From a virus: a DNA stretch of 39,143 bases. The position numbers and the translations under genes were made by a program. Below the pieces are notes generated by a model. It ran no database searches and was not told the origin of the DNA. It saw only the letters and a program-made list of their open reading frames with translations. The stretch is from positions 1-39,143 of the IMG/VR virus record IMGVR_UViG_3300027852_000096; one strand, written 5' to 3'. The first letter of the stretch is position 1, and every line of letters begins with the position of its first letter. This document shows, piece after piece, positions 3,243 through 34,721 of this stretch.

Positions 3243-4052
3243 ATGAGCTACGATACATATGAGGAAAGTGTACAGAGTGGCGCACCCATTGAAGGGTTTG
3301 AGTTTGTTGGTAGCTTTACTACATATCGATATACTAGTTCTCAGGTAGATGTTGATATCTTTAGTCAGACCTATACAGCTATTGCTATTGAGCGTAATGC
3401 TGTAAAAGCTACTACTCAGAATGATGATGGTGGGGATCTTGAAGTAACAGTACCATATGATATTCCGCTGGTGGAGGACTATGCATATTCTAAAGCCCCA
3501 CCTAATCTAACACTAGAGATTGTAAGATTTCATGAGGGAACCGACCCTGTAACTGATTGGGTGACCATTTGGAAAGGAATTGTAACTAATTTCTCAGTAA
3601 GTGGTAGAATCTGTAAGATCAGGATTCCAAGTATCTTTTCTGTGGTGCTACGTGGTGAATTACCTAATGTATATTACCAAGGCCCCTGTAATCACCGGCT
3701 ATATGACTCAAGATGCGGTTTAACTGCAACTTCATATCGTACTCAGAGTACTATTACAGCTATTGATGGTAATGAGATTACTGTAGCTGCTGATGGTGTA
3801 GATGATGGCCATCTAGTTGGTGGAGAGTTAGTCGATACTACACAGAGTGAACGTCGATTGGTGATCTCGAATATAGCTAATGTCCTGACACTTAACTTCC
3901 CATTCTACGGTGCTGAAGTTGGAGATTCAGTAGATATGTATGCTGGCTGTGATCATTCGTTTGCTACCTGTGGAACGAAGTTCTCTAACCAGGAGATGTT
4001 TGGAGGCTTTCCTTTCATTCCAGGCATCAATCCATTCGAGGGTGATATATGA
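3243..4052 (+). CDS. gpL-like tail-tip protein (BR0599/DUF2163 family) with candidate Fe-S motif
   Basis: 269 residues. The C-terminal end, with a Cys-Gly-Thr-Lys-Phe-x-Asn stretch and a Gly-Gly-Phe-Pro-Phe-Ile-Pro-Gly motif, is characteristic of the BR0599 C-terminal domain; the first half is DUF2163-like. Four cysteines occur as C149-x8-C158 and C236-x6-C243. Lambda gpL coordinates a [4Fe-4S] cluster with pairs of the same spacing (C-x8-C and C-x6-C, from memory), so this protein probably holds a cluster in the tail tip. It is a component of the tail tip complex, acting during tail assembly and DNA ejection. The stop overlaps the start of the hub protein (ATGA). No good SD is visible at the ATG, so it may rely on coupling to the gene upstream. 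Confidence 0.82.
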   Translation: MSYDTYEESVQSGAPIEGFEFVGSFTTYRYTSSQVDVDIFSQTYTAIAIERNAVKATTQNDDGGDLEVTVPYDIPLVEDYAYSKAPPNLTLEIVRFHEGTDPVTDWVTIWKGIVTNFSVSGRICKIRIPSIFSVVLRGELPNVYYQGPCNHRLYDSRCGLTATSYRTQSTITAIDGNEITVAADGVDDGHLVGGELVDTTQSERRLVISNIANVLTLNFPFYGAEVGDSVDMYAGCDHSFATCGTKFSNQEMFGGFPFIPGINPFEGDI

Positions 4053-7000
4053 TATGGCTAACGCTCTCATTGTTTGTAGTTAGTTTTTTTCTATCATATC
4101 TACTAACGCCAAGCCCAGATGCTGAGAATGTTAGAGCTGGGACACTTGATGATCTCAATTTTCCACAGGCAGATGAAGGAAGCCCAGTTGCATTACTGTT
4201 TGGTAGGTGTAAACTCAAGTCTCCGCATGTTCTATGGTATGGAGACTTTACCTCCTCAGCCGTTCGGAAAAAGGTTAAGACTGGGCTATTTAGTTCTAAA
4301 CGAGTAACAACTGGATATAAGTATTATGTTGGTCTACATCTTGGATTAGCCATAGGTCCAAATGTGAGGATTCGTAAGATTCAGTTGGGCAAGTACACGT
4401 TGTGGTCTGGTACAGCATCAGGCGATGGTAGCCTACTACAAGTCAATAAATCTGGGTTGTTTGGTGGCTCAGATCGTGGTGGCGGATTTGTTGGTGACAT
4501 TAGATTCTATAGCGGTGGTGACAGTCAATCTGAGAATGTTTATCTTGAAGGTCAGCTTGGGACTGTTCCTGCCTATAATAATGTAGCTCATCTAGTCTTT
4601 GAAAAACCATATATAGGTACAGCTCCAAGCCTACGAATTGCAAGTGTTGAGCTGGAACGATATCCCAATAATCTGGCATTAGCATCTGGTGTACAGCTTA
4701 TTAATGATGACCTAAATCCAGCTGAGATACTTTATGATATTCTTACTGATAATTGGGGTGGCCTAAACATAGACCCATATGACATTGATACAGCCTCTTT
4801 CCTTTCTGTGGCTATTACATTAGCCGATGAAGAAAATGGTATGAGTATATTGGTTACAAAGGCCAACAATGGTAAGAAGGTTATCGAAGAGGTTCTTAGA
4901 CAAATTGACGGCATTCTTTATCAGGATCCTGTGACAGGTAAAATGGTACTGCGACTAATCCGTGATGATTATGATGAAGCTACAATACCCCTACTTGATG
5001 AGACTCGTATTGCCGAGATTAGTAACTTCTCCCGTACAGCTTGGTCAGATACACTAAACCAGGTTAGAACTGTATTTACTGATAGACGTAGGGACTATGA
5101 AAAGGGCTCAGCGTTTATTCAAGATATGTCCAACATTGCAGTCCAAGATCAAGTACGAAGTACCACTATCTCCTTCCCAGGTTGTATGGAGCCTGCTCTT
5201 GCTAATCGCCTTGGTGCTCGTGAATTATCACAACTTGGAGTTCCGCTGGTACGTGCTACACTCAGGTTAAAACGGATTGATACTGTAGATCTACGGCCAG
5301 GTGATGTATTTAGAATGAATTGGGATGACTATGGTATTGAGGGTATGGTAATGAGGGTCCAGAAATTTAATATGGGTGAATTAACTGATGGTCGAGTAGT
5401 TCTCGAGGTTTTACAAGATTCGTTTGCTGATGCTAGTCCTATCTATGCTAACCCAGCAGACACAAGCTGGGCTGTACTTGATCGACCAGCTACAGATATT
5501 ACTGAGTTTACTGTATTTGAAAGCCCAAAATTCTTTGTGGATCAAGCTCTAGATATTGATGGTAGTGATAGCCCAGTAACAACCCACCTGTGGGCTTTAG
5601 CCCGTCCACCAGCATATGGTGAAGGCTATGATCTTATTACCTCTAATGATAGTTTTGTTGGTGAGATTACTACTGACTTAAGCCATGTTGAGTTTCCTAA
5701 CTCTGCTACTCTAGTTGAAGGTATCTATCAACAGATGGGACAGCCAACCGGTGAACTTACCAAAATTGTAATTGGTAATTTATACCCCGATGACTTTGAA
5801 CCATCATCTAGTAGTGAATCTGATATCCAGACTCATGGCTATAACCTTATCATGATCAATGGTGAGTTTATGGCCTTTGAAGGAGTCACTGATAATGGTG
5901 ATGGTACTTTTGATTTAGAAGATGTCCACCGAGCGCTCTTAGACTCTCCAATCGAAGACCATGCAATAGGAGATGCTGTCTATTTTATAGACAGCATTGA
6001 CTGGCTCAGTTTCAACAGTCGGGATTACCCCGGTACTTATGGCTATAAGCTACTATGCTTTACTGACCAGGACTCTCAAGATGAGAATGATGTCTCACAG
6101 TCTAACATTGTCTTTGCAGAGCGATATAAACGACCCTATGCCCCAGACTATATCACAGTTGATGGTGAACGAGCCCCATTTGCCATCATAGGTGTTACTG
6201 ATGTCGATGTAACCTTTAGAGCTCGTAACCGTCAAACTGATACCATAGTCTTCTATGATGATACCGCTGAAACTCCAGAAGGTAGTATTACCTATAATGC
6301 TTACTTTAAGATGGGTGGAACAGCGATCTCTAATAATTTAGGGGCTGCTGGTCCAACGATTAATCTTAGCGGACTGAGTGGAGCTGGGTGGGCTCGAGTT
6401 GAACTTGATTCTGTTCTTGACTCAGACCCAAGCCATGAAGCTGATGCTATCGAATTCTTCTATGCCAATTACGTGAGTCTAACATCAGAGCTAGTAACTG
6501 ATGGTGACTTCGAACTTTCGGGTGTCACTAACTGGACTAATGTAAGTGGTACTTTTGCAAAGTCAGCTACAAGTGATTATCACCCCTTATATCCAGAGGG
6601 TGATCAATACCTACATGCAACAGCTGATGGTAGTGAAGTCTACCAAGATATCACTGTCAGTTCATATCAAGGTCAGGCTGGGATCTTCAGGATCTTCCAC
6701 GGTAGTGAGAGCTCAGGTGATGAGAGCTCAGTTGTTATAGAACAACGAGACGGGGGTGGTCTACTTGATTCGATCACTGTACCAGCCTCCTCTGTGGATC
6801 CTGGTAAGTGGGAAGTTATTGATGTGGCAATTCCCATTCGCAGTGATTGCGCTACGTTACGAATCCGGTTGCTAGGCGACACAGGAGCTGCCTTTGAGGA
6901 ATGCTCATTCAAAGTAAATACCGTTACTCGTACTACTGCAATGACTGACTATGACAGTGTTACAGGAGTCACTGTTCAAAGTGCATATGGTCTACGTACT

Positions 7001-7762
7001 ATGGTCTCTACATACTCTGGGCCACTCATCAAGATTAGGGATACAGATGATGACACAGAGACTGACCTATACGCCGATATTGATGGCAATCTTGAAGCCT
7101 TCTACACAGTCGGTGAAGCACGAGTTGTAAAGCTTTATGACCAATCTGGTAGTGCTGCCCATCTTGAACCCTCCTTGGTAGCCAGACAACCACGATTACG
7201 TCACCAGCTATCTCCTACTGGTAGGTGTCACATTGAGTTTAATGAGACACTAAAAACTATGCTCAGTGACCCCACAACTGGTACTAGTCGTCCATATATG
7301 GATGCTAGGCCTAATGCTATCTTACTGGCTGGCCCACGAACTGCCTCGAGTAGTGATGGCTGGTTAGTAACTATCTGGCATGATACTGACACCGCTGATC
7401 CATACTACCGCTGGGGCCTTATTACAAAAGAGCCAGAGGCCTGGGAAGTTTCAGTAAATGGAACTAAGCGTAGTATCACTGGGGACCCAACCACAGGTAA
7501 TCATGTTTGGATTCTTGATTACCAGAACGGCGATGCCTACCAAAATGCTTACACGACTCCTGTGGATTCATGGACTGCCACTGATATTACATACCCTGAA
7601 GATACACTACTTGTTATAGGTCAGGGTGGAGGAGGGCTCTTCAATTGGGAGGGAGACTTCTACGAACTCTGTATCTATACTGGGAACATAGCTCAAGCTG
7701 AACGAAATTCGATGATGAACCAAGCTACTGATTACTGGTGGAATACCACAATTAGTAGCTGA
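4049..7762 (+). CDS. Tail hub / host-receptor-binding protein with carbohydrate-binding-like C-terminus
   Basis: 1237 residues. Residues 1-21 form a hydrophobic segment, and residues 25-90 match the start of the long tail proteins that follow DUF2163/BR0599 genes (gpJ analogues). The middle (about 300-650) fits a hub with fibronectin-like beta segments. Residues about 800-940 resemble a jelly-roll carbohydrate-binding module (start Asp-Gly-Asp-Phe-Glu, typical of galactose-binding-like folds). From about 950 to the end the sequence resembles the arabinofuranosidase-B/LamG type: an Ala-Tyr-Gly-Leu-Arg start, Gly-Pro-Leu-Ile-Lys-Ile-Arg, and Leu-Tyr-Asp-Gln-Ser-Gly near residue 1030. Function: forms the tail tip and probably binds surface sugar on the host. 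The start overlaps the upstream stop by 4 bases; GAGGG lies about 7 bases upstream. Confidence 0.8.
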   Translation: MIWLTLSLFVVSFFLSYLLTPSPDAENVRAGTLDDLNFPQADEGSPVALLFGRCKLKSPHVLWYGDFTSSAVRKKVKTGLFSSKRVTTGYKYYVGLHLGLAIGPNVRIRKIQLGKYTLWSGTASGDGSLLQVNKSGLFGGSDRGGGFVGDIRFYSGGDSQSENVYLEGQLGTVPAYNNVAHLVFEKPYIGTAPSLRIASVELERYPNNLALASGVQLINDDLNPAEILYDILTDNWGGLNIDPYDIDTASFLSVAITLADEENGMSILVTKANNGKKVIEEVLRQIDGILYQDPVTGKMVLRLIRDDYDEATIPLLDETRIAEISNFSRTAWSDTLNQVRTVFTDRRRDYEKGSAFIQDMSNIAVQDQVRSTTISFPGCMEPALANRLGARELSQLGVPLVRATLRLKRIDTVDLRPGDVFRMNWDDYGIEGMVMRVQKFNMGELTDGRVVLEVLQDSFADASPIYANPADTSWAVLDRPATDITEFTVFESPKFFVDQALDIDGSDSPVTTHLWALARPPAYGEGYDLITSNDSFVGEITTDLSHVEFPNSATLVEGIYQQMGQPTGELTKIVIGNLYPDDFEPSSSSESDIQTHGYNLIMINGEFMAFEGVTDNGDGTFDLEDVHRALLDSPIEDHAIGDAVYFIDSIDWLSFNSRDYPGTYGYKLLCFTDQDSQDENDVSQSNIVFAERYKRPYAPDYITVDGERAPFAIIGVTDVDVTFRARNRQTDTIVFYDDTAETPEGSITYNAYFKMGGTAISNNLGAAGPTINLSGLSGAGWARVELDSVLDSDPSHEADAIEFFYANYVSLTSELVTDGDFELSGVTNWTNVSGTFAKSATSDYHPLYPEGDQYLHATADGSEVYQDITVSSYQGQAGIFRIFHGSESSGDESSVVIEQRDGGGLLDSITVPASSVDPGKWEVIDVAIPIRSDCATLRIRLLGDTGAAFEECSFKVNTVTRTTAMTDYDSVTGVTVQSAYGLRTMVSTYSGPLIKIRDTDDDTETDLYADIDGNLEAFYTVGEARVVKLYDQSGSAAHLEPSLVARQPRLRHQLSPTGRCHIEFNETLKTMLSDPTTGTSRPYMDARPNAILLAGPRTASSSDGWLVTIWHDTDTADPYYRWGLITKEPEAWEVSVNGTKRSITGDPTTGNHVWILDYQNGDAYQNAYTTPVDSWTATDITYPEDTLLVIGQGGGGLFNWEGDFYELCIYTGNIAQAERNSMMNQATDYWWNTTISS

Positions 7763-7781
7763 TACTGGAAGTGAGGAAGTG

Positions 7782-8018
7782 ATGATTTTGTTATCGATTC
7801 TTAATACCCTAACAACTGGTGAGATGGTAACTGCGGCATCATTTATCTTTGGTGCTGGGGGTGTTTGGTTTCGTATGAGCTATTTTGGCAAGCAAGTAGA
7901 CTGCCTAGAAAAGCGAGTCGATTTAATGGATAAAACCATATCCAATGGACTTACAGAGAAGTTCATGTCACGGCGTGAATGTGAACTTATATCTAAGCAA
8001 GGTCACAGAGAAGAATAG
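7782..8018 (+). CDS. Small membrane protein of the lysis region (holin or spanin candidate)
   Basis: 78 residues from the ATG at 7782, with GAGGAA 3 bases upstream; a GTG at 7779 is the alternative start. Residues about 3-28 form a single hydrophobic segment (Leu-Leu-Ser-Ile-Leu-Asn, then Ala-Ala-Ser-Phe-Ile-Phe-Gly). The rest is a charged, amphipathic, coiled-coil-like tail. It lies directly after the tail genes and before a hydrolase and the endolysin. That position and architecture fit a class III-like holin, an inner-membrane spanin or a small accessory lysis protein. With one membrane segment and no lipoprotein box, I cannot choose between them. Confidence 0.6.
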   Translation: MILLSILNTLTTGEMVTAASFIFGAGGVWFRMSYFGKQVDCLEKRVDLMDKTISNGLTEKFMSRRECELISKQGHREE

Positions 8019-14362: not shown

Positions 14363-16854
14363 TCATCTAGTTCCTTTCCTTGTGACCAGGGACCAATCGC
14401 TGCTTCAGCTGTGATTGGTACTGACATCTTAATTCCGAAGCGATCAAGGAGCTTAGGTCGTTCCATGATCTTGAGTACTCTTGTCACAACTTCTTCGACC
14501 ATTTCCTTACGAACTCTAAACAAGATCGCATCATGGACAGTCCCAAGAATCTTAACATCTCGGCGTCTGTATTCATCTCTAAGCTGAATTGCAGCCATCA
14601 AGTTCCATTCTGCTGCAAAACCCTGAACCGGTGAGTTAATCGCCTGTCGTTCAGCGGCCTTGCGCTCCCATGAGTCTCGCTTGGCCAATGCTGCAGGTAG
14701 GCGTCTCTTGCGTCCCGTAAGTGTAGTGACATATCCATATTCTCTAACGAACCTGATCTGTCGTTTGTGCCATGGTAGTAGTTCTTTGTAAAGGTTAAAA
14801 TAATCACTACGACTCGCTTTCGCTTGGGCCTCAGTAACTGTTACCCCATAGTTATCTCGGGCATATGTCACAAACTTCTTATACCACATTCCATATAAGT
14901 AGCCGAAGTTTGTTGCCTTAGCTTTCTTACGAATGTCCTTCCAAGCTGGGTTTATTTTGATTGCAGCCTTAGGACCGTGGCGAAGTAAAACTTGAATCGC
15001 CTCGCCATACTCAGAGCAACTTGGATTTGATGGCTCTAATTTCTCAGCTGTGGATATGACAAGGTCTGCACGGTCTCCCGTTCTAGCAATCTCTCTAATA
15101 GCTGTTTGCCAATGAATATCCTCGCCTTTTAGAAAGGTCTCTAACATTCGCTCATCACCTGAAAGCTCAGCAGCAATACGTAGCTCTACTTGTGATAAGT
15201 CCGCTTCAATGAACTCCCACCCAGGCTCCGCAGTAACTAAACTACGAATTCTAGAGTCTCGAGGAACCTGCATAAGATTAGGATGCTGGCAGCTTGGACG
15301 ACCAGTTACAGCTCCATGAATCTTGAAGTTTGGATGGAGAAGATTACCATCAAGAAAAGGTTCCCAGCCTTTGATAAAGAAACTCATCTGCTGATTAGCA
15401 CCACGAAGATCCAAGAGTGACTGAGCAATCGGATGCTGAACTCGTTTGAGAACACTCTCACCTGTGGACTTATTTCCAGTTTTAGTAAGATCATCTTTAG
15501 ATGGATTAAGCACTTTAACATCAAGATCTTCGAACAGAATCTTAGCTAATTGTTGAGGTGATCGCCAATTAACATTAGACCAATCCTGACCACACTCTTC
15601 ACCACATGTAAGTAATTTGTGCTTCGCCTCAGCTATACGCTCTGTTAGGTATTTATCAGCTTCCCCAAATTGAGTCAGGTCAATGGTAGCTCCATTATAT
15701 TCAGCATCTAAGAACAGCTCTGAGCAAGGCATAATGATATGCTGAAAGACAGCCTTGACTGTGGGATCCTCATTTAGCTTGCGACCCAATGTAAATCTCA
15801 GCCGCCTAGTATAGTATAGATCCCAGCAATGGTAGATATACATCTCAGGCCACTCGGCATTTATTGGATTGAGATCATAATCTTCAGCACCATAGAACAC
15901 TTGTGAAAGATACTTGAGACCATGCCTATCATTCTCATCTAATGCATAATGGGCAAGCATCGTATCAAAGCTTATCTCCCATCGAACTCCATAATGCACC
16001 CACATCCACAGACAGTCAAACTTCCCATTCTGAGCGACGACACTACAGTCTCTTAGTCGCCGACCAATATGTCTGACCATTGTTCTGTGGAGTTTAGTAG
16101 GCCATGGTCTGTGGGTATGATGTTCAAGAGGAACACTCCACTGAGTTGTCTTGGTACCAAAGCCAATCGATTGTACCCTCGCTCCTTTCTCCCACGGATA
16201 TAAGCCTGTAGTTTCGATATCAAAGGATACTGTACCATTTAGATCTTTAATCATGTCTGCAAATTGTTGTGGTGTATCCACAGAGATTGGATTAAATCCT
16301 TCTTGCTTATTACTACGGCCTTGTGATAAATCCCTGAAGAGTTTGATATCAGCTTCAAGTGTAGCCTGTTTGGTGGGGTCACGTAGGATAGCTGCTGGAT
16401 GGAATGCTGGTACGTAGGTGACTCCATCCTCAGTGATTGCACGGCCTCTGAGCTTAGTGATACCCTTCTTACCTAACACTGACTGGCAGGCTGTGTTACC
16501 AAGGAGTAATATAAAGCTTGGCTCAACCTCTTCGATCTGTCGCTGAATCCATGTTCTGCAGGCTTTGATTTCTGTGGTTGATGGGTGTCTATTCTTAGGT
16601 GGGCGACAGCTTACAGCATTGGTAATAAAGATCTTCTTATCATCAAGACCAACATCATCAAGGATCTCACGCAGTAATCTACCGGCTGGACCAACGAATG
16701 GACGTCCTGAATCATCCTCACGGTGCCCTGGGGCCTCGCCGATGATCATTGTATCACATTGCGCAGGACCGGTACCTAGCAGACAAACGTGTTCTGCTGT
16801 TTCATGTAGTCGACAACTGGTGCACTCAGGGTCTCTCTTAAGTTTCAATGACAT
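14344..16854 (-). CDS. DNA polymerase, family A, fused to an N-terminal Fe-S uracil-DNA glycosylase domain
   Basis: 836 residues. Residues 1-190 are a family 4/5 UDG: Cys11, Cys14, Cys83 and Cys99 with the spacing of the [4Fe-4S] site, motif A Gly-Glu-Ala-Pro-Gly (39-43) and motif B His152-Pro-Ala-Ala. From about 205 a 3'-5' exonuclease follows (Phe-Asp-Ile-Glu-Thr-Thr-Gly). The polymerase part has motif A Asp-Leu-Ser-Gln-Val-Glu-Leu-Arg, motif B Lys-Lys-Ala-Lys-Ala-Thr-Asn-Phe-Gly-Tyr-Leu-Tyr-Gly and motif C Val-His-Asp-Ala, with Ala where Pol I has Glu. It is the main replicase. The UDG may remove or sense uracil ahead of synthesis. SPO1-type polymerases are the nearest precedent I recall for such a fusion. 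It overlaps the deaminase gene by 17 bases. Confidence 0.95.
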   Translation of the reverse strand: MSLKLKRDPECTSCRLHETAEHVCLLGTGPAQCDTMIIGEAPGHREDDSGRPFVGPAGRLLREILDDVGLDDKKIFITNAVSCRPPKNRHPSTTEIKACRTWIQRQIEEVEPSFILLLGNTACQSVLGKKGITKLRGRAITEDGVTYVPAFHPAAILRDPTKQATLEADIKLFRDLSQGRSNKQEGFNPISVDTPQQFADMIKDLNGTVSFDIETTGLYPWEKGARVQSIGFGTKTTQWSVPLEHHTHRPWPTKLHRTMVRHIGRRLRDCSVVAQNGKFDCLWMWVHYGVRWEISFDTMLAHYALDENDRHGLKYLSQVFYGAEDYDLNPINAEWPEMYIYHCWDLYYTRRLRFTLGRKLNEDPTVKAVFQHIIMPCSELFLDAEYNGATIDLTQFGEADKYLTERIAEAKHKLLTCGEECGQDWSNVNWRSPQQLAKILFEDLDVKVLNPSKDDLTKTGNKSTGESVLKRVQHPIAQSLLDLRGANQQMSFFIKGWEPFLDGNLLHPNFKIHGAVTGRPSCQHPNLMQVPRDSRIRSLVTAEPGWEFIEADLSQVELRIAAELSGDERMLETFLKGEDIHWQTAIREIARTGDRADLVISTAEKLEPSNPSCSEYGEAIQVLLRHGPKAAIKINPAWKDIRKKAKATNFGYLYGMWYKKFVTYARDNYGVTVTEAQAKASRSDYFNLYKELLPWHKRQIRFVREYGYVTTLTGRKRRLPAALAKRDSWERKAAERQAINSPVQGFAAEWNLMAAIQLRDEYRRRDVKILGTVHDAILFRVRKEMVEEVVTRVLKIMERPKLLDRFGIKMSVPITAEAAIGPWSQGKELDEWLASR

Positions 16855-17302
16855 CTCCTTGAAGATTCATTATACAACCGTTAGGTACGATACGCAATAC
16901 TGTAATTCCGTGGCCTTCAAATTGATGGAGGTGGTCTATTGATCGATACTCATTCTCAAAGTAGACAGCCCGTATATGTCTAGAAGCTATGATTCGATCA
17001 GTACAGCGTGAACAAGGTGAGTTGGTTATATAAATCACCATCTGAGGCTCATCAGATGGAGCATAAGGAATCTTCCTCAAAGCATTTTCTTCTGCATGAA
17101 TGGTCCTTATACAACTATTCTTCATTATCAAACAACCAACATCTATGCAGTGATCTTCTCCAGGCTCGGACCCATTGTACCCCATGAAGATTTCAAGGCT
17201 AGGAGATACTATAATGGCACCGACATTCAGCCTAGGGCAAGTAGACCTCTTAGCTACTGCTCTAGACATCTCCATGAACATCTGGTGTCTTGAGATCCTC
17301 AT
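16838..17302 (-). CDS. Deoxycytidylate (dCMP) deaminase
   Basis: 154 residues. The zinc site is His69-Ala-Glu71 with Pro-Cys97-Ser-Arg-Cys100, and Gly-Tyr-Asn-Gly followed by Asp-His-Cys (about 41-52) is typical of dCMP deaminases. The enzyme converts dCMP to dUMP with Zn-activated water, feeding thymidylate synthesis or a modified-pyrimidine route. It lies between the TS-fold genes and the polymerase, and its start and the upstream stop share a base (17302), so it is translationally coupled. Length is normal for the family, and the extra cysteines at 52, 57 and 64 may form the second zinc site seen in T4-like enzymes. Confidence 0.93.
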   Translation of the reverse strand: MRISRHQMFMEMSRAVAKRSTCPRLNVGAIIVSPSLEIFMGYNGSEPGEDHCIDVGCLIMKNSCIRTIHAEENALRKIPYAPSDEPQMVIYITNSPCSRCTDRIIASRHIRAVYFENEYRSIDHLHQFEGHGITVLRIVPNGCIMNLQGDVIET

Positions 17303-18039
17303 TAAAAGACCTCGCTTACGTCTTGCTCATAGACGTGAAAGCTGTTAATAAACTGACAGAATTGGCCAACTTCATAATTGGCTTCTTTAGCCACGTATTT
17401 TAGTAGTACTATCGTAAGCCAACAGTCATTAGCCCAGTGATTGATGAAGTCACACGACCTCATAGTATAGGTAATGTGGAGCTTACCATTCCGTAATATA
17501 AAGTGCCAGCCAAGTGAGCATGGAACCCGTCGATGGCCAATGCGGTCAATGTCAGTATGAGGATCCCACATTGAGACAAAGAGCTGGCGTGAGAAAGGAT
17601 TCTTCCTCAGTTCACTAATAACTTTCCTCACCTGTGAGTTCATTGCAAATCGTTCGGGGTAGGTATAAGCCAATTGCAAGCTACAACCGGGGATATCAAA
17701 ACTGTTAGGCACTCCAGTCTTAGGGGGTAATGGTAGGCGATCAATTTCAAGGAACTCCTCCCAAAGATTCCGACGTTGGAGCCAAGATTTACCGGGGTTA
17801 ACGGGATTGCCATTAATACCCCTCCGACGCTCTACCCATTCAACTTCAGCCCATGGCATAGTTGGTCGTAGGTGTTCAATGTCAGGCTCGAGAACGGTAA
17901 AGCCGTAGTTCACTAGCTCGAGAGTTGTGAAGTCACCACTCTTATCTTGCATTCGATTAGCTTCAATCCGAACGCCCATCTCTTTTAGATCTCGCTTAAT
18001 CTCGCCTTCAGCCTCGGTGAAATTCTTGAAGATTCTCAC
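17302..18039 (-). CDS. Thymidylate-synthase-fold enzyme, predicted dCMP hydroxymethylase type
   Basis: 245 residues. TS-family marks are the phosphate-binding Phe-Ser-Arg-Gln (149-152), nucleophile Pro-Cys174, Met-Arg194-Ser-Cys-Asp, and Ser-Phe-His-Val-Tyr (233-237). Counting from the Arg of the Arg-Ser-x-Asp motif, residue +11 is Asp205, preceded by Asn. In E. coli thymidylate synthase this position is Asn177; in T4 gp42 dCMP hydroxymethylase it is Asp, also within Asn-Asp. Asp selects cytosine over uracil, so I predict action on dCMP (hydroxymethylation, or methylation) rather than dUMP. The usual Pro-Cys-His of TS is Pro-Cys-Ser. It overlaps the second TS-fold gene by 4 bases. Confidence 0.8.
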   Translation of the reverse strand: MRIFKNFTEAEGEIKRDLKEMGVRIEANRMQDKSGDFTTLELVNYGFTVLEPDIEHLRPTMPWAEVEWVERRRGINGNPVNPGKSWLQRRNLWEEFLEIDRLPLPPKTGVPNSFDIPGCSLQLAYTYPERFAMNSQVRKVISELRKNPFSRQLFVSMWDPHTDIDRIGHRRVPCSLGWHFILRNGKLHITYTMRSCDFINHWANDCWLTIVLLKYVAKEANYEVGQFCQFINSFHVYEQDVSEVF

Positions 18040-18830
18040 TTCCGTCTCCTCTTCATTCCTGGGTGGTGTTCTCTGAGATATTTACGTAGTACTTCTTTCT
18101 GATCTTCACTCAGTCGCCTAAGCACATCTTTCTGGACATGTAAAGACTGTGAGTGTTTCTGAATCCCGTGTTCCCATTCTTCGCACAAGTATCTTGCTGT
18201 GGCTTTAATGATGTTCTCCCACAGTCTATGATCCTGGTCCTTCACTTGATGTATCATTGCCACGGGATCTTCTTCGTGTGGCAGAATTACAGCAAAGTAC
18301 ATTGGATGTAGGGTCATGTTTGCAAAGTGGAACCTGATCTTAGTGATTGGACAACCATCAAAATCAAATGGCTCGAGCAGCACATCACGCAAGAAGACTA
18401 GGTCGGCCGGGAACTTCTTGTAAAACTCTGTGGTACGGTAGAAGCAGTCAATCTCTGCTGTCTTCTTCACCCACGTAACATTGACTGCCTGGATACATGG
18501 ACCCATCTTACTAGCACGCTTGGACCCCTTAGTCGGATCAGCTTTTAGTAAGTGGTTAAACGTCGTAAAGCCAACACTGCCATATTTGGCTTGATCTCGT
18601 CTAACTCGCCACATCTTGATTGCACTATTGTGGCTCTCTTTATGATGGTAGAGGTTTTTCAACATACTCATCTTCATGCTAGTATAGCCAGCGTCAGACA
18701 AGATTAAGTCATTCTGTGGTGGCCCCTCAAAGGTAATCATTCGCCCTCGAAGAATCTTACGAACCCCGCTGTAGAAGTCAGCAGGCTCAGCAGTTAGCTC
18801 CCACACATGTCGTAACCATTCTTCTATCAT
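18036..18830 (-). CDS. Second, divergent thymidylate-synthase-fold protein
   Basis: 264 residues from the ATG at 18830, which shares its A with the upstream stop (TAATG); a longer frame to 18941 lies inside the upstream gene and is not preferred. Pro-Cys112 is followed exactly 20 residues later by Arg132-Thr-Thr-Glu, the same spacing as Cys174 to Arg194 in the neighbouring TS-fold enzyme. Residue +11 is again Asp (Asp143), and a His-Pro-Met-Tyr segment matches the TS His-x-Tyr end. The canonical Ser-x-Asp is lost. It may be a paralogous subunit, a second pyrimidine-modifying enzyme or a partner that forms a heterodimer. I recall similar proteins in phages with modified DNA but cannot name one. 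Confidence 0.65.
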   Translation of the reverse strand: MIEEWLRHVWELTAEPADFYSGVRKILRGRMITFEGPPQNDLILSDAGYTSMKMSMLKNLYHHKESHNSAIKMWRVRRDQAKYGSVGFTTFNHLLKADPTKGSKRASKMGPCIQAVNVTWVKKTAEIDCFYRTTEFYKKFPADLVFLRDVLLEPFDFDGCPITKIRFHFANMTLHPMYFAVILPHEEDPVAMIHQVKDQDHRLWENIIKATARYLCEEWEHGIQKHSQSLHVQKDVLRRLSEDQKEVLRKYLREHHPGMKRRRK

Positions 18831-19504
18831 TAGTAGTTCGACCTCTGTCTGAATTTGTTGACTTCCGACTTCTTGAAGTAGATTGCAAAGATCTGTTTGG
18901 CCTTTAGTCCCTCTCGAGTGAAGAGTCTTACCATTATCCAAAAACCATTATGGAGGTGTCCATAAAACCTCTCTCGATCAACCAGCTGATGCGTTATCTT
19001 CCATGGTCGCTGTTTTAGACAGTTTCCAGCACAGCCAAGATGGTGGATAGTCCAATACAGATCTTGGACTCGTTCTTCGGGACCGGTATGTTCAGTCTCA
19101 ACTGATAGCTGTATTTTTTCAAGCTTATCACTAGCACATCCTTCTACACACTGAACAACTTCATTGGGGGTAACTCCAGCAAGTAATAAAGCCTCCACCA
19201 TAAAGTGAAGTGCATCAGCTAGTTCCTCCAGATAATGGTTTGAGTTGTTGGGATGCTCTAAAGTAGCCTCCATCGCTTCAGTAAGTTCCTCCGTAGTACG
19301 CCAGAAGAAGTCTTTCAAACGAGCCTGACCAAACTTGTCATTGAGATTGACTGGGCAATCGTCAGTCCAGCATAGCCCATTATGCTTCTCGATGGGAATG
19401 TACTTCTGCATCAGCTCGTGTTGCCTGTGAAAGATCCAGTCTAACATATCCATCTCTGAGAAGTTAGTTGGGACAAGGTCATCCTTTATATCATCGACAT
19501 TCAT
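18830..19504 (-). CDS. All-alpha NTP pyrophosphatase, dimeric dUTPase/dCTPase-like
   Basis: 224 residues. The metal motif Glu72-Glu73-x2-Glu76 and Glu94-x2-Asp97 matches the all-alpha MazG/dimeric dUTPase superfamily. The C-terminus Tyr-Phe-Lys-Lys-Ser-Glu-Val-Asn-Lys-Phe-Arg-Gln with a final Asn-Tyr matches the dimeric dUTPase (dUTPase_2) signature Lys-Asn-x2-Asn-x2-Arg-Gln. T4 gp56 dCTPase/dUTPase belongs to this superfamily. The enzyme hydrolyses dUTP and possibly dCTP to the monophosphate, keeping uracil out of DNA or emptying the dCTP pool for modification. In the operon it lies between the kinase (4-base overlap) and the TS-fold genes. The choice of dUTP or dCTP cannot be made by sight. 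Confidence 0.82.
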   Translation of the reverse strand: MNVDDIKDDLVPTNFSEMDMLDWIFHRQHELMQKYIPIEKHNGLCWTDDCPVNLNDKFGQARLKDFFWRTTEELTEAMEATLEHPNNSNHYLEELADALHFMVEALLLAGVTPNEVVQCVEGCASDKLEKIQLSVETEHTGPEERVQDLYWTIHHLGCAGNCLKQRPWKITHQLVDRERFYGHLHNGFWIMVRLFTREGLKAKQIFAIYFKKSEVNKFRQRSNY

Positions 19505-19986
19505 CCTAGTAGTCCTTTCACCATGCGGCAGATACCGGCTGCTTCATTGTATTTATGGTAGACAATGTGAGCGTGTTCTGCTGCCCACTTGTCGTAAGTT
19601 TGGACAAGCTCTGCATATCGCTCATCTAAAAGTCTCATGTGCTCGTCACTCTCACCGCCTGAGGCTCGGTGCCCAGTAAGCCCTTTGCCAATTGCTCGGC
19701 AGTATATAAAGAAGTTGGTTTGACGATAAAAGACAGCTACTAGATTAGGGGGAATATCCGGCTCTTCTCTACATAATCCTTCATTATATACGTTCTGAGA
19801 CACGACAATATGGCGGTCGATTATCATGTGGTCTAGCTCAAGATATCGCTGAGCCTTCTGTAGCGTTGCACCCCAGCTACGAGGCTTGCCCTCACGTGGT
19901 TGAATGGTAAGACCTGTGGCTTTAGCAATCATACGTGAGAGGGTTGACTTACCTGCATTATCAGGACCCTCTAAAATTATATTCAT
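19501..19986 (-). CDS. P-loop (deoxy)nucleoside monophosphate kinase
   Basis: 161 residues from the ATG at 19986 (AAAGG 10 bases upstream); an ATG at 20004 adds six residues but has no SD. Walker A Gly-Pro-Asp-Asn-Ala-Gly-Lys-Ser-Thr (7-15) and Asp-Arg-His fit the thymidylate-kinase-like fold. The lid region Thr-Gly-His-Arg-Ala-Ser-Gly-Gly is Arg-poor. It is shorter than cellular thymidylate kinase. As first gene of the nucleotide operon, next to a dNTP pyrophosphatase and two TS-fold enzymes, it plausibly phosphorylates a dNMP, perhaps a modified one as T4 gp1 does. A kinase acting on hydroxymethylated pyrimidines in DNA is an alternative. Confidence 0.8.
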   Translation of the reverse strand: MNIILEGPDNAGKSTLSRMIAKATGLTIQPREGKPRSWGATLQKAQRYLELDHMIIDRHIVVSQNVYNEGLCREEPDIPPNLVAVFYRQTNFFIYCRAIGKGLTGHRASGGESDEHMRLLDERYAELVQTYDKWAAEHAHIVYHKYNEAAGICRMVKGLLG

Positions 19987-20003
19987 CTGAGACAAACCTT
20001 TCA

Positions 20004-20032
20004 TTGACTTTCGGTTTCAACTAGATTATATA
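20004..20032 (+). promoter_or_regulatory. Rightward promoter overlapping the leftward one
   Basis: On the plus strand TTGACT (20004-20009) and TATATA (20027-20032) are separated by 17 bases. It would drive the HTH gene at 20080 and the primase-helicase. Its -10 overlaps the -10 of the leftward promoter, so RNA polymerase should be able to occupy only one at a time. Confidence 0.65.
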
Positions 20033-26483: not shown

Positions 26484-26771
26484 ATGGGTGTGTACATCAA
26501 CCCTAAGGACGAGACCAAGGAAGAGTTTCTCAGTCACTATCCCGTGGTGGATAGGCCAACTCGAGAAGCCTTCGATGAGGCGCTGGAGGCCGGCGATTTC
26601 TACGTCTGTCTGGTCAACAACGTCGCTTTCACCGCGGCAGCGATTGCCTACAAGTACAGCGAAGTCGAATGTTTCGCTGACTCGATGGACATACAACCAA
26701 GACTGTGGTTCCTCGTTCCCGAGGTAGCACTCCGGCTGGTCTCGAACCTGGGAGATTACATTGGACCATAA
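26484..26771 (+). CDS. Conserved-looking phage protein of unknown function
   Basis: 95 residues, acidic, mixed alpha/beta; ATG 7 bases after AGGAGGA. GC-rich third codon positions suggest good expression. No cysteine pair, membrane segment or catalytic motif. The end overlaps the TTG start of the DUF2786-like gene by 11 bases. Not recognised. Confidence 0.7.
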   Translation: MGVYINPKDETKEEFLSHYPVVDRPTREAFDEALEAGDFYVCLVNNVAFTAAAIAYKYSEVECFADSMDIQPRLWFLVPEVALRLVSNLGDYIGP

Positions 26772-27417
26772 GAAAGTACTCGAGCAGGTCAGGAAATTGC
26801 TCGCTCTTGCTAAGGATGACGCAGCCTCGGAGAATGAGACCGAGGTTGCGATGGCAGCAGCGCATCGGCTGATGCAGAAACACCGCATCAAAGAGGTAGA
26901 GCTAGGCCAGGTAGACTCGGATTTCGAGATCATGGATAAGGATCTTGCCTGGCTCGGTAGCCGTGCAACCCAATGGAAAGGGTATCTGGCTAAGACTGTC
27001 GCCACTCACAACGGCTGCTATGTCTGGGTCAGTGACCGCGACGGCAATCACTTCATTCAGGTCGCAGGTCGTCCCGAAGACGCTGCCATCGTCTACGAAC
27101 TCTACAGGTTCTGCGTCCGTCAGATCATGGCTATGTCTACAATGCACAAGGGCCGAGGTGCAAGGTTTCTCAATGCCTGGCGAATGGGTGTTATCTTCAC
27201 CATCGACCGACGTCTCCGGGTAGTTACCGAGGAGTTAGCGCAAGGTTCAACCGCTCTTGTGGTCATCAACAATCGGGCTGATGAAGCAGCCAAATTCATC
27301 CAAGACCAAATAAAGCTGAGGCGGCCGAAAGCCAACAAACGCCCACTTGACACAGACGGCTACTTACGAGGATGCCATGACGGCGAACAGATCCGCCTCA
27401 ACAAGGAACTCGAGTGA
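26761..27417 (+). CDS. DUF2786 family protein (TTG start)
   Basis: 218 residues from TTG at 26761, with GGAG 6-7 bases upstream. The N-terminus Lys-Leu-Leu-Ala-Leu-Ala-Lys with Glu-Asn-Glu-x-Glu-Ala(Val)-x-Met-Ala-Ala-Ala-His-Arg-Leu-Met-Gln-Lys-His is the DUF2786 signature. The remainder (about 60-190) matches the usual C-terminal part with Arg-Ala-x-x-Trp-Lys-Gly-x-Leu. The family is common in phages and plasmids; its role is unknown. GC-rich codon use like the upstream gene. The stop codon is within the left arm of the 20-bp inverted repeat 27415-27476. Confidence 0.85.
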   Translation: MDHKKVLEQVRKLLALAKDDAASENETEVAMAAAHRLMQKHRIKEVELGQVDSDFEIMDKDLAWLGSRATQWKGYLAKTVATHNGCYVWVSDRDGNHFIQVAGRPEDAAIVYELYRFCVRQIMAMSTMHKGRGARFLNAWRMGVIFTIDRRLRVVTEELAQGSTALVVINNRADEAAKFIQDQIKLRRPKANKRPLDTDGYLRGCHDGEQIRLNKELE

Positions 27418-31102: not shown

Positions 31103-31448
31103 GTGAATTTAATACGCATGCGCGACCCTGAGCCATCTTGCCATTATGGCATCTGAAAAGCCGAAATCGGCCGGTGGCCACGTCGGTAGAGCGAGCCATT
31201 TTGCTGTGCGTTAAAAGACGCAACACCTTCTCCTCTGTGGACCGCAAGTACGAACCCTGGTCAGACTTACGGATAGTGCAAAATGACGCAGAAGGTGTGC
31301 AAAATGACGCACAGCGAGTAGACAACGCGCTACCGTACGCTACCACACGCTAATATGGTGGACCATAACGACAGGCACGACGATTGCAATAGACTATGTA
31401 CGTGCGACAATGCACAAGACACTGAAACCCTACGATGGAGGAAATGAC
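31103..31448 (+). other. Intergenic region with iteron-like repeats
   Basis: No gene with a proper start is seen in these 346 bases. It holds direct repeats GTGCAAAATGACGCA at 31276-31290 and 31297-31311, 21 bp apart (two helical turns), with an inverted partial copy CATTTTGC at 31197-31204 and TGCGT/ACGCA arms near 31207-31221. These look like operators or iterons for the gene at 31449 or for replication start. No convincing sigma70 promoter is seen. Confidence 0.5.
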
Positions 31449-31733
31449 ATGAGCAAGAAGACCAACAAGGCGAACAACACACCGAAGACCGACGAGAAGA
31501 CCGAAGCGAAGGTCGAAACCTGCACCGTCGCCGCCATCGCCCGCGACAACGGCATTGACCCGAAGATCGCCCGCGCCAAGCTGCGCAGGATCTACGGTGC
31601 GGACGATGCGTCGCCGAAACTGCCCAAGCCCATCACGCAGGGCAAGTGGACGTTCGACGCCAAGTACGAAGCCGAGCTCCTGGAGCTGATGACCTCCGTG
31701 CAGGCGAAGGTCTCGAACAAGGTCTCGAAGTAG
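31449..31733 (+). CDS. KLRR-type helix-turn-helix DNA-binding protein, free paralogue
   Basis: 94 residues from the ATG at 31449, 7 bases after GGAGG (an upstream ATG at 31410 has no SD). A Lys/Thr-rich tail of about 30 residues leads to the HTH: Thr-Val-Ala-Ala-Ile-Ala-Arg-Asp-Asn-Gly-Ile-Asp-Pro-Lys-Ile-Ala-Arg-Ala-Lys-Leu, then Arg-Arg, and a Trp-Thr-Phe strand with an acidic helix. The same layout forms the SNF2 C-terminus and the recoded island gene at 34253. Third positions are nearly all G or C, a sign of high expression or recent transfer. Likely a DNA-binding or nucleoid-type regulator; the target is unknown, with the nearby iterons a candidate. Confidence 0.75.
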   Translation: MSKKTNKANNTPKTDEKTEAKVETCTVAAIARDNGIDPKIARAKLRRIYGADDASPKLPKPITQGKWTFDAKYEAELLELMTSVQAKVSNKVSK

Positions 31734-33079: not shown

Positions 33080-33177
33080 ATCTGGTAGATTTTTATTTCT
33101 GGTAGCTGGCCGGTAGACTGGTAGCTGGTAGGCTTGGTAGCTGGTAGGGCCGGGTGGCCGCAGGGCCGGGTGGCGAG
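33080..33177. repeat. TGGTAGCTGGTAG / GGGCCGGGTGGC repeats, second array
   Basis: Units TGGTAGCTGG, GGTAGACTGGTAGCTGGTAG and TGGTAGCTGGTAGG are followed by GGGCCGGGTGGC twice (near 33147-33174). This GC-rich, GG-rich block ends at 33177, exactly where the RG-free island begins. The change in composition at the junction is abrupt. Confidence 0.65.
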
Positions 33178-33180
33178 TCA

Positions 33181-33202
33181 AATGTTACGAATTTGTAACA
33201 TT
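33181..33202. repeat. Left terminal palindrome of the island
   Basis: AATGTTAC (33181-33188), GAATTT, GTAACATT (33195-33202). The same ATGTTAC-N6-GTAACAT arrangement ends the island at 34653-34672. It begins 3 bases inside the island boundary. A further, related TTACGAATTTGTAA is at 33220-33233. Confidence 0.8.
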
Positions 33203-33238
33203 ACAATATTGTGACAATATTACGAATTTGTAATATTA

Positions 33239-33365
33239 CAATTATGCAATGTACATTGCAACAATGTAACAATTCAATTGTTGCAATTATGCAATGTACA
33301 TTGCAATAATGTAACAATTCAATTGTTGCAATTATGCAACATATATTACAATTATGCAACAAATG
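33239..33365. repeat. 45-bp tandem repeat at the left of the island
   Basis: A 45-bp unit starting CAATTATGCAATGTACATTG begins at 33239 and 33284, with a single C/T change between copies; a partial third begins at 33329. Each unit contains the palindromes GCAATGTACATTGC and ACAAT-TC-ATTGT. It resembles iterons or a strong binding array; no gene overlaps it. Confidence 0.8.
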
Positions 33366-33376
33366 TTACAATGTGA

Positions 33377-33634
33377 TTAATACAATATTGATTCAAACAA
33401 ATGACAAAATGCGTCAAAATTGTCATTTTGAATGTCATTTAATATTGTATTATGATTACAAAAAAATGACATACATTCAATTACACATTGCAATTGCATA
33501 AATGTTTTTACGTCATTTTCATGTGAATGTACGTTATCATAAATCACATTCATAACACGTATTGCGTTATCATCATGTTTAATGTGATCAAAAATAACGT
33601 ATTCGATTGATTTTTCAATCAATGTACGTTTCAT
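33377..33634 (-). CDS. Island gene A: 85-residue protein of unknown function
   Basis: The ATG at 33634 is preceded by AACGAAACGAATGAAACG, the leader shared with the other island genes, which supports it as real. It has no Gly, Pro or Trp, as forced by the alphabet, and five cysteines near residues 50-80. Mixed, acidic/His-rich, no membrane segment. It lies 27 bases after the stop of gene D and so forms a leftward pair with it. No family recognised. Confidence 0.55.
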   Translation of the reverse strand: MKRTLIEKSIEYVIFDHIKHDDNAIRVMNVIYDNVHSHENDVKTFMQLQCVIECMSFFCNHNTILNDIQNDNFDAFCHLFESILY

Positions 33635-33661
33635 CGTTTCATTCGTTTCGTTATATGCACG

Positions 33662-33775
33662 TTAATGCATGATTGATGCGATAACAAACACAAAATACGC
33701 AATGACAATTACAATCGTCATATGCGTTTCGATGAATTCATTTACACGTTTCGTGTTTTTTGTATCATTGTACAT
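33662..33775 (-). CDS. Island gene D: 37-residue single-pass membrane protein
   Basis: ATG at 33775 after AACGAAACGACGAAACA, close to the shared island leader. Residues 1-18 are polar and charged (Asn-Asp-Thr-Lys-Asn-Thr-Lys-Arg), and residues about 19-36 are one membrane segment (Met-Thr-Ile-Val-Ile-Val-Ile-Ala-Tyr-Phe-Val-Phe-Val). Similar in plan to gene B on the other strand. First gene of the leftward island transcript. Confidence 0.5.
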   Translation of the reverse strand: MYNDTKNTKRVNEFIETHMTIVIVIAYFVFVIASIMH

Positions 33776-34089
33776 TGTTTCGTCGTTTCGTTATGTGCAT
33801 TTGCACGTTCAATCATATACATGCATTTATCATGCACAATCGATTAAAAATCATAACGTGTTATTATACAACGTGTTATAATATACGTGTATATCGTGAT
33901 ATCGTGTAATCGTGCAAACGTGTGCAATGCATAATGCATTATGCAATGTATTATTGAACGTCGAATAAACGTGTATATGCATAACGTATTGATATTAAAC
34001 AACATACGATTTTATTGTGTTTTGTCACGATACATGCATTGTCATGTGTACACGCGTCAAACATGACGCACAACGAAACGAATGAAACG
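33776..34089. promoter_or_regulatory. Divergent control region between the two island operons
   Basis: 314 bases without a clear gene. It contains an 18-bp palindrome TGCATAATGCATTATGCA (33928-33945), several CACGTT/AACGTG and GTGTAT/ATACAC pairs, and A/T-rich -10-like boxes (on the minus strand TTGTATAAT near 33873-33865). No TTGACA is possible to the left of an allowed base only by chance; TTGACG occurs at 34201 on the plus strand. Promoters for both operons should lie here, but I cannot fix them. Confidence 0.45.
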
Positions 34090-34212
34090 ATGAAACGCAT
34101 GAACAAAAACATTTCGACGATTATCATGATTACGTTTGCAATTGCATCGTTTGCATTCGTCATTGAATTGATTGAATTCGTATACGTCAATACATACGTG
34201 TTGACGCATTAA
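34090..34212 (+). CDS. Island gene B: 40-residue single-pass membrane protein
   Basis: ATG at 34090 after AACGAAACGAATGAAACG (34072-34089). The basic front (Met-Lys-Arg-Met-Asn-Lys-Asn) and a membrane segment at about 9-32 (Thr-Ile-Ile-Met-Ile-Thr-Phe-Ala-Ile-Ala-Ser-Phe-Ala-Phe-Val-Ile) make a small inner-membrane protein. No Gly, Pro or Trp. First gene of the rightward island operon; gene C follows after 40 bases. Confidence 0.5.
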   Translation: MKRMNKNISTIIMITFAIASFAFVIELIEFVYVNTYVLTH

Positions 34213-34252
34213 ACAACGTGCATTGATGCACACAACGAAACGAATGAATGAC

Positions 34253-34519
34253 ATGAACACGCATGATGAAAACACGACGATGACGATTGATGTGATCACG
34301 TTTGATGACGTTGCGAACGATGACAATGAAACGTTCGACGTTGTGAACGTTGCACGCGCATTGTCGATCGATTGCAAACGTGCGCGTGCGCGTATGCGCG
34401 CGAACGAACGCAACGACAACGATGACACGCGCATCGACGTTCATCGTATCAACAATGTTCACACATACGTGCGTGACGAATTCGACGATGTATTGCGAAT
34501 CGTCACGAATCACAAATAA
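34253..34519 (+). CDS. Island gene C: recoded KLRR-type helix-turn-helix protein
   Basis: 88 residues from the ATG at 34253, 4 bases after AACGAAACGAATGAA (in-frame ATGs at 34223 and 34244 are less well placed). Residues about 30-50 (Val-Val-Asn-Val-Ala-Arg-Ala-Leu-Ser-Ile-Asp-Cys-Lys-Arg-Ala-Arg-Ala-Arg-Met-Arg) align without gaps to the HTH of the 31449 protein, about 10 of 21 identical, with Ser for Gly and Cys for Pro, which cannot be encoded here. The end (Arg-Asp-Glu-Phe-Asp-Asp-Val) matches Lys-Ala-Glu-Phe-Asn-Glu-Val of the SNF2 copy. So this is a real gene kept functional under the island's rule. Probably the island's DNA-binding regulator. Confidence 0.7.
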   Translation: MNTHDENTTMTIDVITFDDVANDDNETFDVVNVARALSIDCKRARARMRANERNDNDDTRIDVHRINNVHTYVRDEFDDVLRIVTNHK

Positions 34520-34535
34520 CGATTTTCGTTTCGTG

Positions 34536-34590
34536 CAACGTGTCGCGCATAAATCATGCGCGATACGTTGTTTATTTATTTTTTTATTTA
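34536..34590 (+). terminator. Intrinsic terminator of the island, written without AG/GG/CT/CC
   Basis: CAACGTGTCGCGCAT (34536-34550) pairs with ATGCGCGATACGTTG (34556-34570), 15 bp with one G-T pair and a 5-nt loop, followed by TTTATTTATTTTTTTATTTA (34571-34590). It closes the rightward operon of genes B and C. Confidence 0.88.
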
Positions 34591-34651
34591 TTTGTAACAC
34601 ACATGTCATGTATGTAATATAATAAAATTGCAACAATTGTGACAAAATCGC

Positions 34652-34672
34652 AATGTTACATTATTGTAACAT
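34652..34672. repeat. Right terminal palindrome of the island
   Basis: AATGTTAC (34652-34659), ATTATT, GTAACAT (34666-34672). Same arrangement as at 33181-33202; the island ends one base later. Upstream, CAACAATTGTGACAA resembles pieces of the left repeat array. Confidence 0.8.
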
Positions 34673-34721
34673 GCCCTAAGCCCCGCCAGTAGCGCCCGCC
34701 AAAATTTTAGAGAGAAGCTTC

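Follow-up and report, generated by a model that had tools for sequence, protein, structure and literature searches.

We found that, in a lineage of tailed phages, a single transcription unit per genome shows strong, graded selection against the dinucleotides AG and GG in its sense strand, which is equivalent to selection against CT and CC in the template. The rule spans both strands in the strongest islands, among them that of the phage DNA analyzed here, and in some of these it also covers the DNA upstream of the promoter. The selected unit encodes or adjoins a small helix-turn-helix (HTH) protein, often together with a transmembrane (TM) microprotein; its promoter, where recognizable, is host-type and sigma70-like. 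Hereafter, RG denotes AG and GG, and CY denotes CT and CC; RG on one strand is CY on the other.

Extent and gene content of the island

The window, that is, the whole stretch of DNA analyzed (39,143 nt), comes from IMG/VR and is the contig of a tailed phage; it contains tail genes as well as genes for a PolA-type DNA polymerase, an exonuclease, a Sak4-like annealing protein, and a primase-helicase. A direct count revealed that positions 33178–34673 (1496 bases) contain no AG, GG, CT, or CC on either strand; the preceding forbidden dinucleotide starts at 33176 and the following one at 34674. A previous sequence-only reading of this DNA had reported the same zero count and the same coordinates, which proved right to the base, and the approximately 250 occurrences that it expected from composition agree with 500 mononucleotide shuffles (mean 250.5, minimum 219). 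Based on the window's own frequency of these dinucleotides (0.236 per step), zero occurrences over 1497 steps correspond to a log10 P-value of approximately -175, and the second-longest RG/CY-free run anywhere in the window is 39 bases. Once dinucleotide counts were fixed, no tri- or tetranucleotide in the island deviated by more than about 2.4 standard deviations, which means that the rule operates exactly at the level of dinucleotides. Avoidance of restriction sites, which would usually remove a longer, palindromic motif, was considered and set aside, as three- and four-base words showed no further anomaly. An assembly artefact is very unlikely to be the source of the island, because islands are present in 15 other phages (see below), including one phage represented by two independent assemblies (G003 and G004).

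Two 45-bp direct repeats that are 96% identical (33236–33325) lie in the left end of the island, which is AT-rich. The island is also bounded by an imperfect terminal inverted repeat, whose 48-nt left arm (33182–33229) is 73% complementary to the right arm (34625–34672). With regard to a transposon or cassette, neither a flanking direct repeat nor a transposase was noticed, and the inverted arms are of low complexity.

The island contains four genes, arranged as two divergent transcription units that start from its middle. The leftward unit (minus strand) consists of a 37-amino acid membrane microprotein (33662–33775), in which one TM stretch (MTIVIVIAYFVFVIASIM) was predicted by eye, and an 85-amino acid protein (MKRTLIEKSIEYVIFDHIKHDD..., 33377–33634) that matches no known family. 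The rightward unit (plus strand) consists of a 40-amino acid membrane microprotein (34090–34212, open from 34063), again with one TM stretch recognized by eye (MKRMNKNISTIIMITFAIASFAFVIELIEFVYVNTYVLTH), and a predicted HTH-like DNA-binding protein of about 90 amino acids (34253–34519; the frame is open from 34226 and 34253 is the likely start). The latter has a conserved VARALSI..K.ARARMRAN motif, and its HMM match was obtained with a model that itself includes this sequence. Synonymous recoding with the codon usage of the phage predicted 10–30 forbidden pairs per gene, whereas all four genes contain zero; for example, 26 would be expected in the 85-amino acid ORF and 30 in the HTH gene by synonymous randomization. 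Beyond what had been noticed from the sequence alone, the island consists of transcription units with genes, and related phages carry partial, strand-biased versions of it.

Each of the four genes is preceded by the same element, AACGAAACGA, which is located 8 nt before the ATG of the 85-amino acid ORF (33643–33652, minus strand), 7 nt before that of the 37-amino acid ORF (33783–33792, minus strand), 8 nt before the ATG at 34090 (34072–34081, plus strand), and 9 nt before the ATG at 34253 (34234–34243, plus strand). No further copy occurs anywhere in the window, the expected number being 0.02, and each of the four lies 7–9 nt before an island ATG. Since a normal Shine-Dalgarno sequence cannot be written without RG, AACGAAACGA is probably its stand-in, that is, a putative RG-free ribosome-binding element. 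The rightward unit ends with an intrinsic terminator that also lacks RG and CY (34535–34571, plus strand); it has a 16-bp stem, a T-rich tail that extends to about 34590, and a folding energy of -26.5 kcal/mol (z -5.8). Divergent promoters presumably lie in the central region between the two units (33793–34062), where the ORF layout places them, the promoter scan being indecisive.

Partial and strand-biased islands in other phages

Neither the island DNA nor its HTH protein retrieved any match when used directly as a query. Relatives were reached via the neighboring replication genes (polymerase and primase-helicase), and their genomes were scanned for stretches depleted in RG or CY, each stretch being given a log-likelihood score. 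The earlier reading had suggested that other RG-free segments be sought in phages, and 15 further phages have one island per genome, ranging from partial to nearly complete. Among named phages and contigs, RG was observed 12 times against 65 expected in Desulfofustis phage LS06-2018-MD02 (L007), 9 against 61 in Manatee Spring phage MW202777 (L008), and 66 against 319 over 2.8 kb in Brevundimonas phage Polewnik, and CY was observed 59 times against 387 expected over 3.0 kb in Brevundimonas phage Strzyga; a contig of a gammaproteobacterial MAG (L219) has 10 against 50 and 3 against 41. The remaining islands are from IMG/VR. Those with two depleted counts are G001 (6 against 76 and 3 against 73 expected), G002 (8 against 79 and 2 against 77), G023 (3 against 71 and 5 against 57), and G026 (4 against 94 and 6 against 95). 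The others are G003/G004, one phage in two metagenomes (16 against 91), G007 (12 against 94), G022 (12 against 74), G028 (17 against 133), G042 (14 against 82), and G006, in which RG is depleted over 814 bases (14 against 103) and CY over only 272 bases.

Among 186 loci longer than 10 kb, island scores ranged from 32 to 237, whereas non-island loci had a median of 10.5 and a maximum of 19, except for one at 29; this segment (L162) is a G-poor stretch and was kept out of the island count. The HTH promoters of G009, G012, and G014 show weak RG dips, which were likewise left out of the count, as G-poor leaders can yield such dips. Outside the single depleted segment of each genome, the observed/expected ratio (O/E) is about 0.85–1.0. 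The free presence of these dinucleotides in the corresponding region of relatives had been named in advance as grounds for refutation. Relatives do contain some AG, GG, CT, and CC there, in a gradation from nearly none to ordinary, so that these grounds apply in part; on the other hand, the depletion recurs in 15 other phages, which implies a selected trait.

This distribution also bears on evasion of CRISPR or restriction, by which NGG/NAG or CC protospacer adjacent motifs (PAMs) or short restriction motifs would have been lost. The four dinucleotides do cover an NRG PAM, and depletion of PAMs in phage genomes has been documented (Kupczok and Bollback 2014, PMC4246573). In both cases, a short motif of phage DNA is selected against; however, PAM depletion is a genome-wide underrepresentation, whereas the islands are near-absolute, strand-biased, and confined to one transcription unit, leaving a motif-rich remainder that could still be targeted. 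In addition, the same rule is found in Brevundimonas phages, a Desulfofustis-named phage, and a gammaproteobacterial MAG contig, whereas two phages of the very Brevundimonas strain used by the island phages (B. pondensis LVF1), StAshley (50 of 70 kb examined) and Babayka, have no island. In partial islands, it is mainly the sense strand that is depleted, and L008 and G004 keep much CY. The idea of a CRISPR-blind cassette, put forward by the sequence-only reading, conflicts with this one-strand avoidance in many relatives, with abundant NGG/NAG elsewhere in each genome, and with a rule shared by phages of unrelated hosts but missing from phages of the same host. We consider such evasion extremely improbable.

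In partial islands, the loss occurs mainly on one strand, the sense strand being free of AG/GG and hence the template free of CT/CC. For example, the TM genes of G003/G004 have a sense RG O/E of 0.0 and a CY O/E of 0.9, and the HTH gene of L008 has values of 0.38 and 0.87, respectively. The onset of RG depletion coincides with the promoter, at approximately -52 to -81 relative to the ATG (L007, L008, G003, and G022), and a sigma70-like -10 element is found near -60 in six genomes; in L007 the depletion extends to an intrinsic terminator. Across the graded series, CY is lost second, near the 5' end. Clearing extends to both strands, with nearly the same limits on each, in G001, G002, G023, G026, and the window. 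In G002 and G026, both kinds of dinucleotide are even missing from about 100–120 bases upstream of the predicted -35 element, save for one AGG in G026. As the region upstream of -35 is not part of the mRNA, the clearing in these two genomes appears to act at the DNA level.

These observations allow an explanation at the RNA level to be weighed, in which an endoribonuclease of phage or host cuts RNA at purine-G during infection and the island mRNA has lost every cleavage site. In weaker islands, the primary bias is indeed directed against AG/GG in the RNA that extends from the promoter to the terminator, the one-strand depletion in Polewnik and Strzyga resembles one long RNA, and a sense RNA that lacks the motif is what escape from a MazF-type enzyme should leave behind. 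On the other hand, two-strand clearing with nearly identical ends in the strong islands would require matching antisense RNAs, and antisense and upstream DNA should be unconstrained, which is not the case for the antisense strand in G001, G002, G023, G026, and the window or for upstream DNA in G002 and G026. We know of no ribonuclease with a bare dinucleotide rule, and an RG-specific RNase would destroy nearly all other RNA. The concept itself has a parallel in the single-protein-production system, in which engineered ACA-less mRNA is reported to survive MazF (PMC9102682, PMC5408214). That system shares with the islands a motif-stripped transcript that stays usable while others are destroyed or blocked; it is engineered, based on a triplet, and restricted to RNA, whereas the islands are natural, based on dinucleotides and, when strong, extend to both strands and to upstream DNA. 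Overall, escape from an RNase appears unlikely.

The two Brevundimonas phages show further features. Polewnik has sharp strand switches at 3959/4024, 6816/6831, and 7174/7178, and Strzyga also switches sharply. In both phages, one-strand depletion runs about 765 bases past the visible terminator (the terminator itself was seen in Polewnik) and crosses a conserved gene on the opposite strand, leaving CT/CC in the template of that gene. Such sharp flips are what diverging replication forks would give, and primers often begin with a purine; the phage primase (the AEP-type primase-helicase) or a nuclease of phage or host could initiate or cut at CT/CC, and the island could be kept free of primers or breaks, for example, as an origin. 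A primase or nuclease signal had already been among the ideas of the sequence-only reading. However, the boundaries correspond to promoters and, in L007, to a terminator rather than to one origin, the depletion of the two strands in L008 is arranged convergently rather than divergently, and the primase-helicase is equally present in island-free genomes. A replication signal of this kind seems improbable to us.

Codon and amino acid usage provided additional evidence for selection. Glycine is absent from 11 of 12 HTH proteins (its frequency in the set is 0.2% compared with 7.6%), and Arg, Asn, and Thr are raised where glycine is excluded. In the HTH genes, ACG makes up 74% of Thr codons (25% in the background), GAA makes up 98% of Glu codons, Arg is encoded by CGN only, and Ala codons have shifted from GCC/GCT to GCG/GCA. 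Sites that remain (in G001 and G002, and sense RG in G006) are mostly Shine-Dalgarno sequences, the codon of the conserved Trp, Pro codons, and AAG codons; in the most depleted HTH homologs (G023 and G026), the conserved Trp is replaced by His. Over all depleted segments, 241 CY are left compared with 2106 expected, and each CYN triplet is depleted 5–20-fold, CTC being the least and CTT the best tolerated. Substitution rates (dN of 0.13–0.19 at a dS of 0.75) give a dN/dS ratio well below 1. The shifts in Thr, Ala, and Ser codons need transversions; thus, mutation pressure alone is insufficient, and the pairs themselves are harmful in the unit.

Accumulation without selection, for example, through directional deamination of C before a pyrimidine, has some appeal, since an absorbing mutation process naturally yields zero counts and the GC content of the window island (34%) is below that of the window (46%). 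Yet such a process would not produce the transversions from ACC/ACT to ACG and from GCC/GCT to GCG/GCA, the exclusion of glycine in favor of Arg, Asn, and Thr, or the 2.6-fold enrichment of CpG in the window island, and we regard it as hardly tenable. An edited or templated DNA segment, another early idea, is disfavored by the same transversions and by the low dN/dS. Ribosome use without an anti-Shine-Dalgarno, also proposed from the sequence, does not fit the relatives, in which AAGGA-type Shine-Dalgarno sequences are the most persistent exceptions; replacement of this signal is limited to the most extreme islands.

Every island contains or adjoins a small HTH gene, which belongs to one of two types and often precedes a membrane microprotein gene; the assignment is based on weak profile support in Strzyga and Polewnik and on a motif in L219. 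In a second survey, a strong HTH hit was accompanied by an island at that gene in all five genomes, and none of the eight genomes without a strong hit had one. Exceptions are G009, G011, G012, and G014, which have HTH homologs of the L007 type and no clear island, and L219, whose HTH gene is ordinary and whose adjacent unit is depleted instead. The HTH proteins are small and basic, and the L007 type has a lysine/alanine-rich tail. Family and PDB searches revealed no significant family or fold match, a model of the SW-type HTH protein (pLDDT 71) had no PDB match above chance, and that of the window type (pLDDT 50) was too poor for a fold search. No homolog was found in a search of bacterial genomes, nor in a viral scan with the window-type protein. 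By eye, the proteins resemble Lsr2/H-NS-like small DNA-binding proteins with basic tails, a likeness that the family and fold searches did not extend to a significant match.

The association with islands, including the five-of-five and zero-of-eight correspondence, would be expected if the HTH protein were a nucleoid or shut-off protein that occupies AG/GG:CT/CC everywhere while its own site-free unit stays expressed. However, binding to double-stranded DNA should show no strand bias, and weak islands are biased; the ordinary HTH gene of L219 next to a depleted unit and the four homologs without a clear island also argue against it, and the binding activity has no family or fold support. We therefore regard a silencer that spares its own gene as quite doubtful.

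Predicted cytosine modification and early transcription

The window contains a nucleotide operon on the minus strand, which may provide a clue to the underlying mechanism. It includes a thymidylate synthase (TS)-like enzyme with Asp at the position of TS Asn177 (RSCDFINHWAND, 17302–18039), a second conserved protein that resembles TS distantly by eye (GPCIQ..., RTTEFYKKFPAD, 18036–18941) and has no PDB match, a dCMP deaminase (16838–17302), a dUTPase/NTP pyrophosphohydrolase-like protein (18830–19504), and a thymidylate-kinase-like protein (19501–20004). Asp occupies the Asn177 column in all 14 aligned members of the TS-like family. The replacement of Asn177 by Asp in thymidylate synthase is known to switch specificity to dCMP. 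Of the Lactobacillus casei TS variants in PDB, N229D scored best against the family profile, which also matches T4 dCMP hydroxymethylase and CMP hydroxymethylase. Thus, the first enzyme is a predicted dCMP hydroxymethylase, and we infer that island phages make a modified cytosine. T4 and other phages containing 5-hydroxymethylcytosine (hmC) have genes for dCMP hydroxymethylase, dCMP deaminase, NTP-pyrophosphatase, and a kinase, all of which are predicted here too; the modification in the present phages, unlike that of T4, is predicted from these genes.

Our leading, albeit tentative, mechanism is that context-specific hypermodified cytosine blocks RNA polymerase, so that the unit read first must be free of CT/CC. 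A further modification would be added to cytosine only where a pyrimidine follows. Modified CT/CC in the template would stop or slow the host RNA polymerase, and on the other strand it would hinder less. The virion DNA would then be mostly unreadable at entry, the CT/CC-free unit would be the first that the host polymerase can transcribe, and its HTH product might subsequently open the rest of the genome to transcription. This model would account for the strand bias, for the added sensitivity of the DNA around the promoter, and for the fact that extreme islands are cleared completely. A phage origin of the agent is more likely than a host origin, given that the same rule is seen across different hosts and that phages of the same Brevundimonas strain have no island. 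With regard to the HTH association, the HTH protein itself could equally be the agent.

Several observations speak against a cytosine modification. The enzyme operon is also present, by homology, in G008, G009, and other island-free genomes and, by annotation, in the island-free Pseudomonas phage PMBT14, Serratia phage Serbin, and Gordonia phage SheckWes, indicating that it is not sufficient for an island. In Strzyga and Polewnik, the depletion covers the opposite-strand gene, which has CT/CC in its own template. Moreover, host RNA polymerase reads the glucosylated hmC DNA of T4 efficiently, and a block would thus need something else or something bulkier, and we know of no enzyme or modification with a CT/CC cytosine context. 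T4 also ties the state of cytosine to transcription, through Alc-type termination on cytosine DNA; to our knowledge, however, it does not possess a unit cleared of a cytosine dinucleotide. Separately, clustering of 27 genomes in search of a single gene that would explain the islands revealed none common to all island genomes and missing elsewhere, clade effects being dominant. In addition, 7-deazaguanine modification was examined as a candidate and set aside: a TGT/DpdA-type domain (PF01702) was detected in none of 25 genomes, some of them represented by fragments, and in all 14 controls, in a search that very divergent DpdA could escape.

Implications for phage gene expression

Whatever the agent, we consider it somewhat probable that a genome-wide process during infection makes AG/GG:CT/CC-containing units unreadable at some stage, and that one unit, restricted to the other twelve dinucleotides, must stay readable. 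The readable unit would encode a DNA-binding regulator, in many cases along with a membrane microprotein. Searches of an open-access collection of papers for a dinucleotide-free island, for early transcription of hypermodified DNA, and for glycine-free phage proteins found no precedent, and the earlier reading's statement that it knew of no described precedent stands within that collection. We know of no other described system in which an entire natural transcription unit has to avoid a dinucleotide, even at the cost of losing glycine, proline, tryptophan, and its Shine-Dalgarno sequences.

The islands imply that an enzyme or process following a two-base rule has consequences for gene expression or genome integrity. 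What they predict is a new cytosine modification that is context-specific and governs transcription, or else a new RNase or silencer, and any of these would be a potential tool. They also offer natural RG-free ribosome-binding and terminator elements as well as naturally glycine-free proteins. As the cultured phages Strzyga and Polewnik, which infect Brevundimonas pondensis, have the trait, these predictions are testable now.

Forbidden pairs and strand switching in related islands

AAG/CTT is the best-tolerated form of the avoided pairs (AG/GG, or RG, and CT/CC, or CY, on the opposite strand) across all islands. In three IMG/VR relatives, AAG is repeatedly retained before CGN (G001 21569, G002 31721, G006 38954 and 39194), even though AAA would avoid the forbidden pair. 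In the Brevundimonas phages Polewnik (6816-7437) and Strzyga (7321-7870), the depleted strand alternates sharply, in short arms of 100–360 bases, around a second centre. A distant phage (L162) has an RG-poor segment within a G-poor stretch (1663-2075).

Other genes of the window

Positions 17302-18941 appear to encode two adjoining conserved thymidylate synthase-like enzymes, which are present in nearly all relatives. Both have Asp at the Asn177-like position, the second as judged by eye only. A protein containing DUF2786 and DUF7168 domains (26761-27417) is conserved in several island phages. The 107-amino acid ORF at 31410-31733, which also weakly matches an HTH profile, corresponds to a portion of a ~240-amino acid protein conserved in relatives and is possibly a truncated form of it.

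Flanks and ends of the island

The left flank (33100-33170) contains short, RG-rich tandem repeats (TGGTAGCTGGTAGG); GG-rich repeats also lie immediately 5' of the island of Desulfofustis phage LS06-2018-MD02 (900-1110). Many islands are followed at the 3' end by a conserved RG/CY-rich box (loci of relatives G001, G002, G006, G022, G023, G026, G028, and G042), with the consensus (C)CGCCC(C)GTCCAAAAATT...CACGCACCTGGTCC...ATATTT.TRGGTTTT.AGA.TCACGTAATTACGTG. The corresponding place in the window (34674-34712) reads CGCCCGCCAAAATTTTAG.

Imperfect terminal inverted repeats (33182-33229 and 34625-34672) occupy the extreme ends of the window island, which also contains two 45-bp direct repeats (33236-33325). 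The layout of these inverted and direct repeats resembles that of a cassette or a protein-binding array.
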